Shown: positions 5,405 through 64,000 of the stretch, piece by piece | How the letters are laid out: each line of letters starts with the position of its first letter | How positions within the stretch are numbered: the first letter of the stretch is position 1 | Assembly: GCA_902500825.1 (NCBI GenBank) | Contig: CABVRX010000001.1 | Location: 186,001 to 250,000, forward strand | Direction: 5' to 3' | Source of the DNA: an uncultured Nitrospira sp. | GTDB lineage: Bacteria > Nitrospirota > Nitrospiria > Nitrospirales > Nitrospiraceae | DNA length: 64,000 bases | Notes under the pieces: model-generated | Seen by the model: the letters and a program-made list of their open reading frames with translations, nothing else | Database searches by the model: none | What the model was told of the DNA's origin: nothing | Made by a program: the position numbers and the translations under genes

Positions 5405-7453
5405 TCACAGCTTCACCGTGAGCCAACCCATTACGCGGGTGCCAAGGAGGTCACCCAACGGATGTTCGCGGTGGGTATCATGTAAGGCGTTGAACACGGA
5501 AACAGCCAGCTCGGCTTCCCGTATATAATCCGCAGTCTGCTGTCGCCACAGGAGATATCCCAGCCGGAGATTCAACAAGTTGTAATTCGAGACCTGTTCG
5601 TGTGGAAGTACGGTCCCGGCTGGAAAGAAGCGCGCCAAGTTTGTGAATGCGTCAGCCAACGGATATGACGCATCTCCCACATGGTGATACAGCACTTCGC
5701 CTGTGAAGGGGCTCCAATTCATGCGGAGTCCCACATTCACCTTGTGGTGTGGGAACCCTCGGCGGCTGAATCCGCTAGAGGTTTGTCCGACCTCCTGGTA
5801 CGCGTAGTTCGCAAACCCTGAGAGCCAGGAAGTCAACAGGACTTCCGCGCCCACTTCCCCTCCATACACATCGGCCACGCCGCCATTCACCGGACGCACC
5901 GGATTCAAAGGATTGCCTGTCGGATTTCGAAAGGCGATCAGATCCGAAATGTGGTTGTAAAAGCCCGTCACTCTGGTCCGCAATCGGTGCTCCCACCACC
6001 AGCCTTGATAACCGAGTTCATAGGAAGCGATTTGTTCAGGGCTTACATTGCTTGATCCGAGAATGATAGTAGCCACGGGAGGTGATCCGGGAAGCGTTAC
6101 CGGATTCAGGGCGCTCAGGCCGACCTCACTAGTTGTCGGTGGACGGTATGCAAGTGAACTGGACAGCCGAAGTGCATGGTTCGAATTCAGGTGGTAGACG
6201 ATGGCTCCACGTGGCGACAAGGTTGGGGCGATAAAAGTATCCAGGTCATAACGGAGGCCGGCGCTTACCTCTAGTGAGGGTAGTAGCAACCAGTCTCCTT
6301 GAACGTAAAGGCCAAGACGATTATCAGCCGTCCGGTTGTCGAGCATATTCGATGAACTGATGATGCGTCGATAGTTGGCACCAATATTCAGGTTGAGTGT
6401 TTCAGATGGCCTGAATCGATACCGTGTTTCCAAGTCATAAGTGTTAAGGGAAAATTCTTGATTTGTTTGTCCAAAACGGTCGGTGAGCCCGAGCAGTGGA
6501 ACCAGCAGAGGGTGTATGAGAGGATTGGTTTCGGAAAACACCCCATTCCACCAGCCGCGGACCAGTAGACCGCCCTGCTCATAACTGACAAGCCCATAGG
6601 TCTGAGAAAGATGGCTATCCGCGATGTCAATTTGACTCAGGAAGCCGTTGTAGGGGTTAGAACGTGCGAGTCCTGCCTCGGCCCGGACCTTTCCATCGCC
6701 GGACAAGTGATATTCGGCGATCCCACCGATCCGTTGACCATTGAGTGCCGGCGCGCTTCGATCCGACCAGCGTTGTGTCTGCTCATGTCCGCCTGAGATG
6801 CGGTAACCCCACTTCCCCATGGTTCCTGCGTGGACTGCACTGGTGAGTAGGGTGCCGACTTCACCGCCTGCGACCTGCAGGGTGGTTCCTTTCATCTCCT
6901 CCGGAGATTTCGTGATGATGTTGACCACTCCATCGAAGGCATTGAACCCGTACACCGCTGATGCCGGTCCCTTGAGGACCTCGATTCTCTTGATCTCCGT
7001 CAAAGTGACTGGGAGCTGTTTCCAGAAGACAATCCCGGCCTGATCAATATAGATGGAACGGCCATCAACCAGGACCAAGAGCTTATTGGCCGCCAACTGA
7101 TTATTCCCGCGCACACTGACATTAAAGTCCACGGCGTTCGTTTGCATGACCTCCATGCCTGGGATTTGTCGGAGCAACGTTGGAACATCCGTGGCCCCAG
7201 AGTTACGGATATCCTCATCGGTAATCACATATACATCGGACGGGGCACGAGAGATCGGTTGCTCGTAGCGGCTGGCGATGCTCACTGTTTCTTCCTTCAA
7301 GTACAGCGTCTCCTCCTGGATCTGCTTTTCTATCGTTGAAGAGGAACGAGGAATGGGAAGAGACGTTTCAGCGTGCAATAGATTGCACCACTCACAGAGG
7401 CTCATGATGATAATCGTCGCCCATCGAAGGCGTGTACGGTTTGACGTTCGCAT
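5405..7453 (-). CDS. TonB-dependent outer-membrane receptor
   Basis: 682 residues with a signal peptide (about 1-29). Residues about 60-165 form the plug domain: V-Y-V-I-T-D-E-D-I-R, L-R-Q-I-P-G-M-E-V, R-G-N, L-V-L-V-D-G-R and the R-I-E-V-L-K-G-P-A-S-A-V-Y-G segment typical of TonB receptors. The rest is a 22-stranded-type barrel and ends in a hydrophobic residue (L-T-V-K-L). Such proteins import scarce metals, siderophores or vitamins with energy from TonB-ExbBD. The ligand cannot be read from sequence, but the multicopper oxidase next door makes a metal or metal chelate a reasonable guess. It is transcribed divergently from the small exported protein at 7677. Confidence 0.93.
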   Translation of the reverse strand: MRTSNRTRLRWATIIIMSLCEWCNLLHAETSLPIPRSSSTIEKQIQEETLYLKEETVSIASRYEQPISRAPSDVYVITDEDIRNSGATDVPTLLRQIPGMEVMQTNAVDFNVSVRGNNQLAANKLLVLVDGRSIYIDQAGIVFWKQLPVTLTEIKRIEVLKGPASAVYGFNAFDGVVNIITKSPEEMKGTTLQVAGGEVGTLLTSAVHAGTMGKWGYRISGGHEQTQRWSDRSAPALNGQRIGGIAEYHLSGDGKVRAEAGLARSNPYNGFLSQIDIADSHLSQTYGLVSYEQGGLLVRGWWNGVFSETNPLIHPLLVPLLGLTDRFGQTNQEFSLNTYDLETRYRFRPSETLNLNIGANYRRIISSSNMLDNRTADNRLGLYVQGDWLLLPSLEVSAGLRYDLDTFIAPTLSPRGAIVYHLNSNHALRLSSSLAYRPPTTSEVGLSALNPVTLPGSPPVATIILGSSNVSPEQIASYELGYQGWWWEHRLRTRVTGFYNHISDLIAFRNPTGNPLNPVRPVNGGVADVYGGEVGAEVLLTSWLSGFANYAYQEVGQTSSGFSRRGFPHHKVNVGLRMNWSPFTGEVLYHHVGDASYPLADAFTNLARFFPAGTVLPHEQVSNYNLLNLRLGYLLWRQQTADYIREAELAVSVFNALHDTHREHPLGDLLGTRVMGWLTVKL

Positions 7454-56863: not shown

Positions 56864-57085
56864 TTAGATTTCGGCGAGGCTTGCTCCGGCATGTTCCAAG
56901 ACCGCTTCGATCTGAGCGCGAGTGACACCCGGAAACCATTGCAGGATGTCGTCGACTCTGGCCCCGTCTTCAAGATTCTCAAACAGCGCTTTCACAGGGA
57001 CACGGATCCCCCGGAATACCCATGTGCCGCTGACCTTTCCTGGCACTCGCTCTACCGCCGGGCATTGACTCCAATCCAGCATCAT
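56864..57085 (-). CDS. DUF433 antitoxin-like protein
   Basis: 73 residues from the ATG at 57085 (a longer TTG form reaches 57121). Contains P-G-K-V-S-G-T-W-V-F-R-G-I-R-V-P-V and F-P-G-V-T-R-A-Q-I-E-A-V-L, matching DUF433, a winged-helix family often paired with DUF5615 toxins. The partner here is truncated. Located just before the restriction-modification operon. Confidence 0.8.
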   Translation of the reverse strand: MMLDWSQCPAVERVPGKVSGTWVFRGIRVPVKALFENLEDGARVDDILQWFPGVTRAQIEAVLEHAGASLAEI

Positions 57086-57299
57086 GAGAGAGAGCCTACG
57101 CTCTGCAATCGTTTCAGTCAAGAAAGCGAAGAACCTTCAGGTTCACTTGAGCCACTAACTCAGCACTTTGCACTCAGAACCCAGGACTTCCTTTTCCTCT
57201 TTGGGTGCGTGATTTCTTAGAAGGAAACGGGTAAGCTTCAGCCCAATTTATCCAGAGTCCTGTTGTACGCTTTCCTTCCAATCAATTGGAGAGCCGGGC

Positions 57300-58937: not shown

Positions 58938-59360
58938 ATGATTGATTACGACAAGCTTCAGAAAGCGCTCAAGCATCTGGAATTGCAATACGCCAACCAC
59001 AAGCAGGCGCAGACCCGTCCCGAACTCACCGAGATCGATCGTGAAGCGATCGCGGAATCTGTGATCCGGCGATTTGAAACTTGCTACGACACCCTGTGGA
59101 AAGACCTCAAACGGTACCTCATCGAAGAAATCGGTTTGCCGGATGTTCCCAACAGTCCCAAGCCACTGTGGAAGCTGGCCGGACAGAATGATCTCTTTGC
59201 GTCTTCTGTGGAGCAGTGGCTCAAGTACGCCGATGCCCGCACCAGCACGGCTCATGACTACAGCGGGAAAAAGGCAAAAGAAACCCTCTCCCTCATGGGT
59301 GACTTCATCGACGATGCCATCGGCCTCTACCAGACGATGTCGGGAGCCACGTGGGAATGA
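58938..59360 (+). CDS. HEPN toxin-like protein (HepT / HI0074 family)
   Basis: 140 residues, all-helical. R101-T-S-T-A-H106-D-Y108 is an exact R-x4-H-x-Y motif, which in HepT toxins forms the RNase site and whose tyrosine is the target of AMPylation by the MNT partner. Annotated in databases as nucleotidyltransferase substrate-binding protein, HI0074 family. The stop overlaps the start of the next gene (ATGA), so expression is coupled to the MNT-HsdS fusion. The gene sits inside the type I restriction operon, between hsdM and the specificity gene. Toxicity is inference. Confidence 0.88.
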   Translation: MIDYDKLQKALKHLELQYANHKQAQTRPELTEIDREAIAESVIRRFETCYDTLWKDLKRYLIEEIGLPDVPNSPKPLWKLAGQNDLFASSVEQWLKYADARTSTAHDYSGKKAKETLSLMGDFIDDAIGLYQTMSGATWE

Positions 59361-61075
59361 CCGATGCGATAGATCTCACGACAAAGCAGCGCAGCCAGTT
59401 GAGCGCGCTCTTGCGCCGGTTTCTTCCCGGTGTCGCCGTGTGGGCCTATGGTTCTCGTGTGAAATGGACCGCCCGTCCTAATTCTGACCTCGACCTCGTT
59501 GCCTTTGCCGTTCCCGCCCAACGCCATCAGGTGGGTGATCTCAAAGATGCCCTTGCCGAAAGCAATCTGCTCTTTCCGGTGGATCTCCACGTCTGGGATG
59601 ATGTACCAGAACGTTTCCGCGAGATCATTCGCAAGGACTATGTGGTGGTGCAGGAGGCCAAACAGCCGGATAGTAGACCAAGTATGCCGGGTGAGTCTTC
59701 TGTAGTCCATATTCCTTCAATAGCCGTCCCGCTGCCGTCTGATTGGCGATGGGAACGACTCGATGAAGTCTGTGATGGCGTCTTTGATTGTCCTCACTCG
59801 ACCCCTGTGTTGACGGCGGATGGCCCTTTTGTTGTTCGCTCTCAAGACATGAGGACCGGTGTGTTCCGCATGGAGGAGGCTGGGCATGTATCTGAGGACA
59901 CATATCAAAAGCGAATCGTTCGGGCAGAGCCAAAATATGGCGATCTTTTTTACAGCCGTGAAGGTACTTATTTTGGAATTGCAGCGGAGGTGCCTACTGG
60001 TATTCGTGTTTGCCTTGGGCAACGCATGGTTCTTCTCCGTCCAAAGCTCTCTAAGTGCAATCACCGTTTTCTTCGATACTGGCTGAACTCTCCTGTTATG
60101 GCTTCCCATACGCATGGGCATAGAGACGGCACAGTAGCCGAACGGCTAAATCTTCCGACCATCCGCCAACTACCTGTAGCTGTTCCACCGCTCTATGAGC
60201 AACGCGCCATCGCCCACATCCTCGGTACGCTGGACGACAAGATCGAGCTGAACCGGCGAATGAACGAAACGCTGGAGGCGATGGCGCGGGCGCTCTTTAA
60301 GTCATGGTTCGTGGACTTTGACCCAGTCCGCGCCAAGGCCGAAGGCCGCGACCCTGGCCTGCCTCAGCCCCTTGCTGACCTCTTCCCGAATTCCTTCGAA
60401 GACTCAGAGCTAGGAGAGATTCCGAAGGGGTGGGATGTGGGAACGGTTGCAGACATGTCAGCGCTAAATCCTGAAGTGTGGTCGAAGATGACCCGACCGA
60501 ATCAGATCCGATACGTCGATCTTTCCAATACAAAGTGGGGTCGTATTGAAGCAGTCAGCATGTACCGGGAAACCGACGCACCAAGCCGAGCACAGCGAGT
60601 GCTGAGGCACCGCGACACAATCGTCGGGACGGTGCGTCCAGGAAATGGCTCCTACGCTCTCGTCACAGAGGATGGACTCACTGGTAGTACGGGTTTCGCT
60701 GTTCTACGACCGATACGTCCGGAATACGCTGAATTCGTGTATCTCGCCGCAACGGCATCCGAGAACATCGAGGCATTATCTCATCTATCAGATGGCGGCG
60801 CTTATCCAGCGGTGCGCCCTGAAGTCGTCGCTGCGACGCAGATTGTGCGACCCACCGATCAGGTGATCGACATGTTTTCCCAAGTGACTGCACCCCTTTT
60901 TTTAAGGATGTCCCAGAATGAGTGCGAATCCCGCAATCTCTTTGCTCTCCGCGACACGCTGCTGCCCAAACTCATCTCCGGCGAGCTGCGACTAAAGGAC
61001 GCGGAGCTGTTGCTACAGAAGCGCGTCTCTTGCGAGGTGAGATCGAGTAATGCGGTCGCAGAGCTTGGAGACTGA
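59357..61075 (+). CDS. MNT nucleotidyltransferase fused to type I specificity subunit HsdS
   Basis: 572 residues from the ATG overlapping the HEPN stop. Residues about 1-100 form an MNT domain: G32-S33, ten residues, then D44-L-D46, the exact G-S-x10-D-x-D motif of MntA antitoxins; D76 in F-P-V-D-L is the likely third acidic residue. From about residue 115 the chain is HsdS: first target recognition domain (L-P-S-D-W-R-W-E-R-L), conserved helix (L-G-T-L-D-D-K-I-E-L-N-R-R-M-N-E-T-L), second target domain from about 340, and final helix L-R-D-T-L-L-P-K-L-I-S-G-E-L. Both halves look complete. The protein should AMPylate the HEPN partner and also direct restriction and methylation. The covalent link is unusual. 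Confidence 0.9.
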   Translation: MTDAIDLTTKQRSQLSALLRRFLPGVAVWAYGSRVKWTARPNSDLDLVAFAVPAQRHQVGDLKDALAESNLLFPVDLHVWDDVPERFREIIRKDYVVVQEAKQPDSRPSMPGESSVVHIPSIAVPLPSDWRWERLDEVCDGVFDCPHSTPVLTADGPFVVRSQDMRTGVFRMEEAGHVSEDTYQKRIVRAEPKYGDLFYSREGTYFGIAAEVPTGIRVCLGQRMVLLRPKLSKCNHRFLRYWLNSPVMASHTHGHRDGTVAERLNLPTIRQLPVAVPPLYEQRAIAHILGTLDDKIELNRRMNETLEAMARALFKSWFVDFDPVRAKAEGRDPGLPQPLADLFPNSFEDSELGEIPKGWDVGTVADMSALNPEVWSKMTRPNQIRYVDLSNTKWGRIEAVSMYRETDAPSRAQRVLRHRDTIVGTVRPGNGSYALVTEDGLTGSTGFAVLRPIRPEYAEFVYLAATASENIEALSHLSDGGAYPAVRPEVVAATQIVRPTDQVIDMFSQVTAPLFLRMSQNECESRNLFALRDTLLPKLISGELRLKDAELLLQKRVSCEVRSSNAVAELGD

Positions 61076-61077
61076 TA

Positions 61078-62310
61078 GTGAGAGACGAACGAAACTATCT
61101 ATTCTGCGAACACGACCTTGGCGCAGTTTTAAGCAACCAAGCTAACAAGATGGTCGGTGAGATCGACTCCATGGACCCCAATGCCTTACTGAATGCCAGT
61201 GTTCAGAGCCTAACTGAGGCTCTTGCAGACAAATACAAGGTCGGGATGATTCAGCTCAAAGAAGACCAGATCACTGTGGAGCAGATAGAGGCATCGATTG
61301 ATGTCAGCGGAGACCCATTCAGGGTGATCTTCGATAGGAATGAGCCATTCTATGTGAAGGGAACTGGTATCTCGTTCTATATCCCATTCGATGGCGATAA
61401 AGAATTGTTCAAGTGCAAGCCAGCTACATATACCTTGAACCCTCCTCACGGTTCTGTACGAGGTAATGAGCTCATTCTCTATTACCAAAGGACCGACCAC
61501 AACGCTGAAGCCATCAAGTCGACATTTGAAAATGAGATCGGGCGTATTCGGCAATATTTGCAATGGATATCAGGTGACGTTTCACAATTCAATCAATCAC
61601 TGACCAGCAGCGCCAAAAGTCATATCGAGGAGCGCCGCAGCAAACTTTTAAGGGACCGAGGGCTTGTGAGCGCTCTCGGGTTTCCGCTTCGGCGTAGAGA
61701 AGGCGTACCTCAGACCTATACAGCACCAGCAGTGCGACGCAAGACCCCTGTTTCAAGACCGGTCGAACGTAGTGCTCCGTTCAAGCCAGAACCCGCCTTG
61801 GAGATGCAAGAGTATGAGCACATCCTTTCGGTGGTCTCTAACATGGTAGCTGTGATGGAGAGAAGCCCAAAGGCTTTCTCTGGCATGGGAGAAGAAGACT
61901 TGAGACAACATTTTTTGGTTCAACTAAATGGGCACTATGAAGGACAGGCAACTGGAGAAACTTTCAATTTCGAAGGAAAGACCGACATTCTTATTCGTGT
62001 AGAAAGCAAGAACATCTTCATCGCCGAATGTAAGTTCTGGAGAGGCCCTGAGACATTTTCACAAGCATTGGATCAATTGCTGGGCTATGCGACCTGGCGG
62101 GACAGCAAGCTGGCCTTGTTGATCTTCAATAGAGAACGGCAACTTTCCACAGTGCTTTCCAAGATACCCGAACTCGTGAAAGCCCATGGGTGCTTCAAGC
62201 GACACGTCACCTATGGAACAGAAACGGGTTTCCGTTTTGTCATGCGACATAAGGATGATTCGGAGAGAGAAATGACATTGACAGTCTTAATTTTCGAAGT
62301 GCCGGCATAG
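61078..62310 (+). CDS. Restriction-endonuclease-like (PD-(D/E)XK) protein in the RM operon
   Basis: 410 residues from a GTG two bases after the fusion-gene stop. The N-terminal 200 residues are unknown, mixed helical and beta, with a segment [10 protein letters not shown] basic, proline-rich linker (about 205-245) leads to a C-terminal nuclease-like domain: D303 in G-K-T-D-I-L-I and E317-C-K319 in I-A-E-C-K-F-W, the D...E-x-K of the restriction-endonuclease fold, followed by Q-A-L-D-Q-L-L-G-Y. It lies between hsdS and hsdR, so it is probably co-expressed. Whether it cleaves DNA is unknown; type I systems do not need such a protein. Confidence 0.75.
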
Positions 62311-62321
62311 CAAGCTACAAG

Positions 62322-64000
62322 ATGGGCCATACTTTCACCGAATCTGTTGTCGAAGACGCCGCCCTCGGCTGGCTCGAAGCGCAGGGCTACCAGGTGCTTC
62401 ACGGGCCAGACATCGCGGCAGGCGAACCCCACGCCGAACGCGGTGACCAGAACTACCGTGATGTGGTTCTCGATCGGCGGCTGCGCCAAGCGCTGGTGCG
62501 GCTGAATCCGGAGCTTCCTTTTGAAGCCATCGAGGACGCATTTCGCAAACTCACTCGGTCTGAGGCTCCTTCTTTGATTGAGCGGAACCGCGCTGTTTAT
62601 CGGATGCTTGTGGACGGAGTGAACGTTGAGTATCGGCGAAAAGACGGCTCGATTGCCGGAGCGCAAGCACGGGTGATCGACTTCGACAAGCCCGAGAACA
62701 ACGACTGGCTCGCCGTGAATCAGTTCACGGTTTCGGAGGGGCAGCACACTCGGAGACCGGACGTCGTCCTCTTCGTGAATGGGTTGCCACTTGCAGTCAT
62801 TGAGCTGAAGAACCCGGCGGATGAAGACGCCACGATTTGGAGTGCCTACCAACAGCTCCAGACTTACCAGGCACAGATTCCCTCCTTTTTCTCTATCAAT
62901 GTGGCGCTGATCATTTCTGACGGTGTCCAAGCTCGCATTGGGGCTCTTGGGGCTGGGAAGGAATGGTTTAAACCTTGGCGTACGATTACGGGCACTCAGG
63001 ACGCGGCGCCCACGATTTCCGAGCTGCAAGTGGTCCTGGAAGGAATCTTTGAAAAACGCCGGTTCCTCGACTTGGTGCGGCATTTCGTTGTGTTCGAAGA
63101 CGAGGGCCAAGGAAAGCTCATTAAGAAGATGGCGGGCTATCATCAGTTCCATGCGGTGAATGTGGCTGTCGAGGAAACCTTGCGGGCAGCCCGCCGTGCG
63201 GCAGAGCATCGAGCCGCCGATCCCTTGGGTCAATACAAGTCTGGGTATCAGCCGGGTGGTGAACCAGGCGATCGACGGGTGGGAGTGGTGTGGCATACGC
63301 AGGGATCGGGAAAGAGTCTCACGATGGCCTTCTATGCGGGGCGGGTCATCCTGCATCCGACGATGGCGAACCCAACCATCGTCGTGCTCACTGATCGCAA
63401 TGATCTTGACGATCAACTCTTCGGGACATTTGCTCGGTGCCGTGAGCTGCTCCGACAGGACCCAGTTCAGGCAACCGACCGGGCTGACTTACGCACAAAG
63501 TTGAGCGTAGCTTCCGGTGGCGTGGTGTTTACCACCATTCAGAAGTTTTTCCCTGAAGAAAGAGGCGATCGGCACCCCGTGCTGTCCGATCGCAGGAACA
63601 TCGTCGTGATCGCGGACGAAGCCCATCGGAGCCAGTATGACTTCATCGATGGCTTTGCTCGCCACATGCGTGACGCGTTGCCTCACGCCTCGTTCATCGG
63701 ATTTACCGGAACGCCGATCGAAAAGACCGATGCCAATACCAGAGCGGTCTTTGGCGACTACATCAGCATCTATGACATTCAGCGGGCGGTCATCGATAAG
63801 GCGACCGTTCCTATCTACTACGAGAGCCGGCTCGCGAAGCTCGAACTCAAGGCGTCGGAGCGGCCAAAGATCGACCCCAAGTTTGAAGAGGCGACTGAGG
63901 GGGAAGAAGTCGAGCGGAAGGAGAAGCTCAAAACCAAGTGGGCGCAGCTGGAAGCCGTGGTGGGATCGGAAAATCGGATCAAATTGATCGCGCGAGACCT
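62322..64000 (+). CDS. hsdR: Type I restriction enzyme HsdR (3' end outside the window)
   Basis: The ATG at 62322 opens a frame that stays open to the window end (about 559 codons visible; full proteins are about 1000 or more). Order: nuclease domain with D147 in R-P-D-V-V and E161-L-K163 in V-I-E-L-K-N-P, Walker A Q-G-S-G-K331-S, the helicase box D432-E-A-H435 and the G-F-T-G-T-P motif III. It cleaves DNA after ATP-driven translocation when the HsdM-HsdS complex meets unmethylated sites. 11 bases separate it from the preceding gene. Confidence 0.94.

Follow-up and report, generated by a model that had tools for sequence, protein, structure and literature searches.

Why should the putative antitoxin of a toxin-antitoxin pair form the N-terminus of the specificity subunit of a restriction enzyme? 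The question is raised by a type I restriction-modification (R-M) operon of the order hsdM – HEPN – MNT::hsdS – accessory gene – hsdR, located at the end of a 64,000-nucleotide stretch of a Nitrospira-like genome (hereafter the window; Table 1). An earlier note, made from the letters of the sequence, had described a HepT/MntA pair inside a type I R-M operon, with a HEPN gene carrying R-x4-H-x-Y and overlapped by a single ORF that holds an MNT (minimal nucleotidyltransferase) domain and a complete HsdS. It had further proposed that any event disabling the specificity subunit would release the toxin. We analyzed the locus with Pfam, PADLOC, AlphaFold2 and Foldseek, which agreed on the described arrangement, and compared it with its relatives in other genomes.

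Architecture of the operon and of the fusion gene

The operon is complete: hsdM, an hsdS with two target-recognition domains (TRDs) and hsdR are all present in one operon, and hsdR, which is cut by the window end, is intact in the genome as a 1057-aa ORF (locus L148).

Table 1. Features of the operon and of the HEPN and MNT::HsdS genes, in window coordinates.
Feature	Position	Strand	Evidence
hsdM, type I DNA adenine methyltransferase subunit, 528 aa	57300..58886	+	Pfam N6_Mtase E 6.7e-109, HsdM_N E 3.3e-28; PADLOC MTase_I E 1.5e-213
HEPN protein, predicted RNase toxin, 140 aa, HI0074/PF08780 subfamily	58938..59360	+	PF08780, 1jog profile, model, dN/dS
R101-x4-H106-x-Y108 of HEPN: predicted catalytic R/H, predicted AMP-acceptor Tyr	59238..59261	+	sequence; alignment A10
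MNT::HsdS fusion gene, 572 aa from ATG 59357	59357..61075	+	ORF, Pfam/PADLOC, AlphaFold2 model, relatives
MNT domain	59357..59662	+	Pfam PF18765 + PF01909; 1no5 profile; Foldseek
MNT motif positions	GS 59450-59455, W37 59465-59467, D44 59486-59488, D46 59492-59494, D76 59582-59584	+	
Disordered linker between MNT and HsdS, residues 104-117	59666..59707	+	pLDDT < 50
HsdS part: two TRDs + two long helices	59714..61075	+	PADLOC Specificity_I; Foldseek 1yf2
Accessory gene between hsdS and hsdR, PADLOC phage-defence candidate PDC-S54, 410 aa	61078..62310	+	PDC-S54 E 5.3e-162
hsdR, runs past window end	62322..64000	+	HSDR_N E 1.3e-48; SWI2_SNF2 E 1.4e-78

The HEPN protein is a single domain that matched PF08780 (NTase_sub_bind) in a Pfam search with an E-value of 1.2e-17 (64.6 bits, against a cut-off of 31.8) and the profile of HI0074 (1jog) with an E-value of 7.6e-25. 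Its R-x4-H-x-Y motif is intact, the R, H and Y being invariant in the alignment. A structural model of the protein (pLDDT 94.6) matched 1jog and 8xdj in Foldseek, with TM-scores of 0.84-0.87 against HI0074 and of about 0.8 against the AMPylated HEPN of Legionella.

The fusion ORF may be read from GTG 59351 (574 aa) or from the ATG listed in Table 1, which gives the usual 4-nt ATGA overlap with HEPN instead of one of 10 nt. With either start, HEPN and MNT are adjacent, overlapping and presumably co-transcribed genes, as in type VII gene pairs. Residues 1 to about 100 matched Polbeta (E 2.2e-7) and NTP_transf_2 (E 3.2e-5), both above the Pfam cut-offs, as well as HI0073 (1no5; profile E 5e-38, Foldseek TM 0.88 with 41% identity), and carry an intact motif (G32-S33-x10-D44-x-D46) with a third Asp, D76. 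The remainder is a full-length HsdS that covers positions 3-444 of the 446 of the PADLOC Specificity_I profile (E 7.8e-96) and matched the HsdS structure 1yf2 in Foldseek (E 5e-22). In an AlphaFold2 model of the whole chain (31 natural fusions), a confident MNT fold (residues 1-100) and a two-TRD HsdS with two long helices are joined by a disordered linker of 14 residues, whose sequence and length differ among relatives.

The name HepT/MntA given in the earlier note needs amending. This is indeed a HEPN/MNT pair with both motifs, and the Foldseek and model matches of its two members place it in the HI0074/HI0073 subfamily, the strict HepT and MntA models not being matched: PF01934 was not among the matches listed for HEPN in the Pfam search, and the NCBIfam MntA model NF047752 gave MNT 30.1 bits, below its cut-off of 60. 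HEPN also scored below the curated cut-off of the HI0074 family TIGR01987 (41.2 against 55.8 bits, E 1.4e-10), to which it is related while falling outside its limit. By sequence and fold, the closest known pair is thus HI0074/HI0073 of Haemophilus influenzae (1jog, 1no5), in which HI0073 is not fused to HsdS. RX4HXY, GSX10DXD, overlapping genes and folds are also shared with the type VII pairs HepT/MntA of Shewanella oneidensis (PMC7641770) and HEPN-MNT of Legionella (PMC11586414), but the MNT proteins of these pairs stand alone with less than 150 aa, whereas that of the window is the N-terminus of HsdS in an hsd operon; the window pair further differs from them in being PF08780/HI0073-like, in having HEPN first and in a Trp (Trp37) in the MNT loop. 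In published work, the HEPN RNase is silenced when MntA attaches AMP units to the RX4HXY tyrosine (PMC7641770). MNT also modifies HEPN in Legionella pneumophila, where the RX4HXY residues are reported not to be the RNase site (PMC11586414). By analogy, the HEPN of the window is a putative RNase, though the Legionella result counts against the reading preferred below.

The PDC-S54 gene is probably the cargo of a variable slot, outside the HEPN/MNT mechanism, since other genes fill the same slot in relatives. Such slots were seen between hsdS and hsdR and between hsdM and HEPN (window 61078-62310; L042:7614-9359; L023:6630-7397; L062:3558-5309), with differing, defence-like contents (PDC-S54, an OLD-like ATPase, PDC-M24B and others). 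A DUF433 (antitoxin-like) gene immediately precedes hsdM on the opposite strand (window 56864-57121, minus strand); a partner gene for it was not found. The window's own genome also holds a second, distant HEPN gene (34% identity; G000:C27:50141-50434, L029).

Distribution of the fusion and selection on its parts

In seven relatives that belong to the same taxonomic order as the window and fall into two families, the fused gene is present with an identical overlap. Using an MNT alignment, we scanned 84,980 species genomes and kept the best 80 of at least 531 relatives. MNT and HsdS form one ORF in 37 of these 80 nearest MNT loci, which is not a prevalence figure because the sample is centred on the query. 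In the fused loci, HEPN nearly always overlaps the fused gene from upstream and is itself preceded by hsdM. Judging by record titles, the fusion spans about ten phyla (including Nitrospirota, Pseudomonadota, Acidobacteriota, Bacteroidota, Verrucomicrobiota, Kiritimatiellota, Thermodesulfobacteriota, Bdellovibrionota, Rhodothermota and KSB1), many of the genomes being metagenome bins, and is therefore not a local accident. The earlier note had left room for a stop or frameshift between the MNT and HsdS parts; as the same junction is open in the seven relatives and in many other, independent genomes, we excluded a missed stop, a frameshift or a sequencing error as the cause of the fusion. A separate HsdS start at the in-frame ATG 59684, located at the junction, was also discarded: in the alignment it is missing in most relatives and is thus not a conserved feature.

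Both fused and unfused versions of the operon occur on plasmids. The plasmid pZMOB01 of Zymomonas mobilis ATCC 10988 has the fused order hsdM-HEPN-MNT::hsdS-hsdR. On Acetobacter plasmids, MNT is a gene of its own (hsdM-HEPN-MNT-hsdS-hsdR), an order that shows what the fusion joins; with HEPN first, MNT adjoins hsdS. A single origin of the fusion was rejected, as the tree requires about 15 changes, of which at least 6 are forced by well-supported branches, with gains and losses mixed. A viral origin was likewise set aside, with HEPN relatives not found in viral contigs and MNT relatives not found in phages.

Some operons hold two HEPN/MNT pairs, one stand-alone and one fused to HsdS (L053, L065, L072, L057, L067). 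In some Nitrospirales fusions, a DUF559 (Vsr-like nuclease) domain lies in frame inside HsdS (L025:3996-6191, residues 329-434; L028; L137) and looks like an in-frame mobile element; in L025 it is flanked by repeat-like peptides (..TPPLRGSR..PQ.RRWG), and a similar peptide breaks the HEPN active site in L056/L028.

Between close pairs, dN/dS was 0.06-0.27 for HEPN and 0.04-0.24 for MNT, indicating purifying selection on both and ruling out a decaying HEPN. Identity in the closest pairs is mostly 85-95% for HEPN, MNT and HsdM but about 30-35% for the HsdS part; for MNT domains carried on HsdS, identity is 74-94% in close kin, with the HsdS remainder down to about 30%. The MNT domain thus stays on the S subunit while the DNA specificity is swapped, and its retention through HsdS divergence implies that the tether is selected independently of DNA specificity. 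HEPN distances correlate with those of MNT (r 0.75) more than with those of HsdM (0.42) or HsdS (0.22).

Recurrence of the same fusion across about ten phyla suggests that the restriction enzyme probably restrains a second defence, one that harms the cell itself. This spread, together with persistence through specificity swaps, ties one branch of HEPN/MNT pairs to restriction. The reading that we tentatively place first is that the HEPN RNase is restrained by an antitoxin displayed on the R-M complex and serves as a PrrC-like second line when the complex is lost or blocked. The observed architecture, intact motifs, conservation, selection and retention through specificity swaps fit this reading; for catalysis, AMPylation and trigger, we infer the following steps. 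A HEPN/MNT pair of the HI0074/HI0073 subfamily would have been built into a type I operon with its antitoxin domain as the N-terminus of the S subunit. The MNT domain would bind HEPN and, judging from characterised relatives, most likely AMPylate Y108. Each S subunit, normally part of M2S or R2M2S, would bear the antitoxin on a flexible tether beside the first TRD, and with MNT so displayed the restraint of HEPN would depend on the presence, and perhaps on the state, of the R-M complex. Loss or degradation of the complex, or its blockage by an anti-restriction protein, would leave HEPN free or unmodified, and translation would stop.

A tryptophan in the MNT loop and natural knock-outs

Position 37 of MNT, in the active-site loop, separates fused from unfused loci better than any other HEPN or MNT column: it is Trp in 39 of the 42 fused sequences but in 2 of the 50 unfused ones, and Gly occupies it in HI0073, the Legionella MNT and most stand-alone kin. 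For this column, chosen as the best of about 260, the association with fusion on the best tree was strong (LR 55.5, p 2.5e-11), with about 13.7 of 16 independent pairs for it and 0 against; on well-supported branches only, 5 pairs are left, about 3 for and 0 against, and the association is not significant. Divergent Nitrospirota are mixed at this position: among fused loci, L126 and L127 have G, L144 has N and L129 and L137 have W, and the unfused L123 has W. The genome scan relied on two peptide patterns, one of which admitted only W or G there; this does not favour W in fused loci but hides other residues. With Trp where stand-alone kin mostly have Gly, AMPylation may be altered in the fused MNTs, and we treat W37 as a lead, drawn from sequence comparison, that the fused enzyme may work under changed conditions.

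The loci also include natural knock-outs of each component. The GS-x10-D-x-D motif of MNT is intact in all 37 fused loci, and the R, H and Y of the HEPN motif are present in 33 of them. HEPN function is gone in three fused loci that retain MNT::HsdS, making the toxin dispensable for the R-M side: HEPN is deleted except for about 14 C-terminal codons in L051, its active site is interrupted by an insertion in L056, and in L042 (5390-5960), a close Nitrospira relative, its place is taken by two genes that resemble another toxin-antitoxin pair, one with DUF4258 (apparently frameshifted) and one for a small two-CxxC protein. In L067, the HEPN (~5582-6004) reads R-x4-H-x-N, the predicted AMP-acceptor Tyr being changed to Asn with R, H and the MNT motif remaining. 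Using HEPN as the query, we found no intact HEPN clearly without MNT among 26 HEPN-first loci; of the two that deviate, one lies near a contig end and the other is a pseudogene. In L046, MNT carries a stop and HEPN is absent. A possible exception to this pattern of losses is the stand-alone pair of L109, with a shortened MNT loop and an intact HEPN motif. Overall, the losses, like the selection on both genes, fit a toxin and its antitoxin.

HsdS can die without loss of MNT. Only a decayed remnant of it is left in L131, next to an intact HEPN and MNT. The unfused operon of A. pasteurianus pAPA01-020 likewise keeps HEPN and MNT, which are separate genes there, intact although its hsdS is disrupted by an IS. 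The proposal that any event disabling the specificity subunit frees the toxin is therefore not well supported: MNT is N-terminal and made before HsdS, so that nonsense mutations, frameshifts and IS insertions in HsdS should leave it in place. Nor is the coupling between R-M and HEPN/MNT obligatory, given that the unfused collinear order exists and that HEPN/MNT survive without R-M.

Survival of HEPN/MNT where hsdS has decayed is also what one would expect of an addiction or retention module, in which the fusion would tie antitoxin supply to hsd expression and loss of the operon or plasmid would arrest cells left without S protein, with no sensing of infection. The location of several loci on plasmids, the rare loss of HEPN and constant presence of MNT among fused loci, and the translational coupling given by the ATGA overlap point the same way. 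A covalent fusion is not needed for this, however, as the unfused arrangement works in Acetobacter, and we hold pure addiction to be possible but rather unlikely.

A different role for HEPN has also to be weighed. HI0074-type HEPN proteins were first read as substrate-binding subunits, and the fused MNT might no longer neutralise HEPN. The two would instead form a nucleotidyltransferase acting on the R-M complex or on some other target, with HEPN as the subunit that binds the substrate. The persistence of MNT::HsdS where HEPN is gone and the Trp that fused MNTs usually carry, in place of the Gly of HI0073, of the Legionella MNT and of most stand-alone kin, would agree with such a role. The retention of R, H and Y in nearly all fused loci and the purifying selection on HEPN are, by contrast, expected of an RNase and AMP acceptor, and make this role very improbable.

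Parallels in other immune complexes

HEPN nucleases beside R-M genes and PrrC-like guards are known already. PrrC, of the HEPN superfamily, is encoded in an hsd operon (EcoprrI), as is the window HEPN, and in the PrrC model the nuclease is held silent by the type IC R-M enzyme and activated by T4 Stp (PMC3874165, PMC3710099). PrrC is an ABC-ATPase-HEPN anticodon nuclease without an MNT, controlled by binding, whereas the window HEPN lacks an N-terminal ABC ATPase and is paired with a nucleotidyltransferase fused to HsdS. At least 16 HEPN clades are reported to adjoin R-M genes, for which a multi-pronged defence was proposed (PMC3710099). The same text describes HEPN fused with nucleases, helicases and ATPases and has no mention of an HsdS that carries an MNT antitoxin. 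We found no description of an MNT-HsdS fusion or of Cmr1-MntA in the literature searched, which included few subscription papers and preprints. The MNT-HsdS fusion supplies a molecular link by which the proposal that R-M enzymes keep RNases in check can be tested.

A second fusion of this kind was found in two Nitrospirota loci, where a Cmr1(RAMP)::MNT gene lies beside HEPN (L141:1474-3157 and L147:1480-3184, minus strand); it matches 'Cmr1-MntA' entries of the PDB, from type III-B CRISPR (9z7q, 9z7v, 9z7x). As in the window, MNT is carried on a subunit of a nucleic-acid-recognising immune complex with HEPN adjacent in trans; in Cmr1-MntA, however, the complex is type III-B CRISPR and MNT is C-terminal on Cmr1, whereas in the window the complex is type I R-M and MNT is N-terminal on HsdS. 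Two different immune complexes that read nucleic acids have thus acquired an MNT on one of their subunits. Plain addiction leaves three things unexplained, namely that MNT stays on S when specificity is swapped, the W37 signature and the Cmr1 parallel; together with the fusion as such, these speak for a functional link to the complex instead.

The Cmr1 parallel, which again puts MNT on a target-reading complex, could also argue for a target-gated effector. On binding unmethylated foreign DNA, the S subunit would then alter the tethered MNT, so that HEPN is released or not AMPylated and abortive infection follows even with R-M unblocked. In the model, MNT adjoins TRD1 on a short flexible linker, and W37 suggests changed MNT chemistry in the fused form. 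Yet we saw no sign of a conformational signal; the linker is disordered and variable in length and sequence, and unmethylated host sites would be a hazard. Target gating seems improbable to us. Restraint by the assembled complex, the reading preferred above, may itself be one case of a general design of antitoxins tethered to immune complexes. MNT would have been built repeatedly into HsdS and Cmr1 complexes, the change from Gly to Trp in the GSxxxG loop would make AMPylation depend on an assembled, undisturbed complex, and the RNase would fire when the complex is blocked or engaged. We put this generalisation forward as a possible but rather unlikely proposal.

The fusion also bears on annotation and strain engineering. 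Deleting R-M genes to obtain transformable strains could be affected, since removing such a fused hsdS takes the antitoxin with it. The domain goes unlabelled in 'restriction endonuclease subunit S' annotations and in a public profile library: positions 2-98 of the PADLOC profile PDLC03138 'Specificity_I' correspond to an MNT domain and matched the MNT of the window with an E-value of 3.3e-18 and that of Zymomonas with an E-value of 2e-29.
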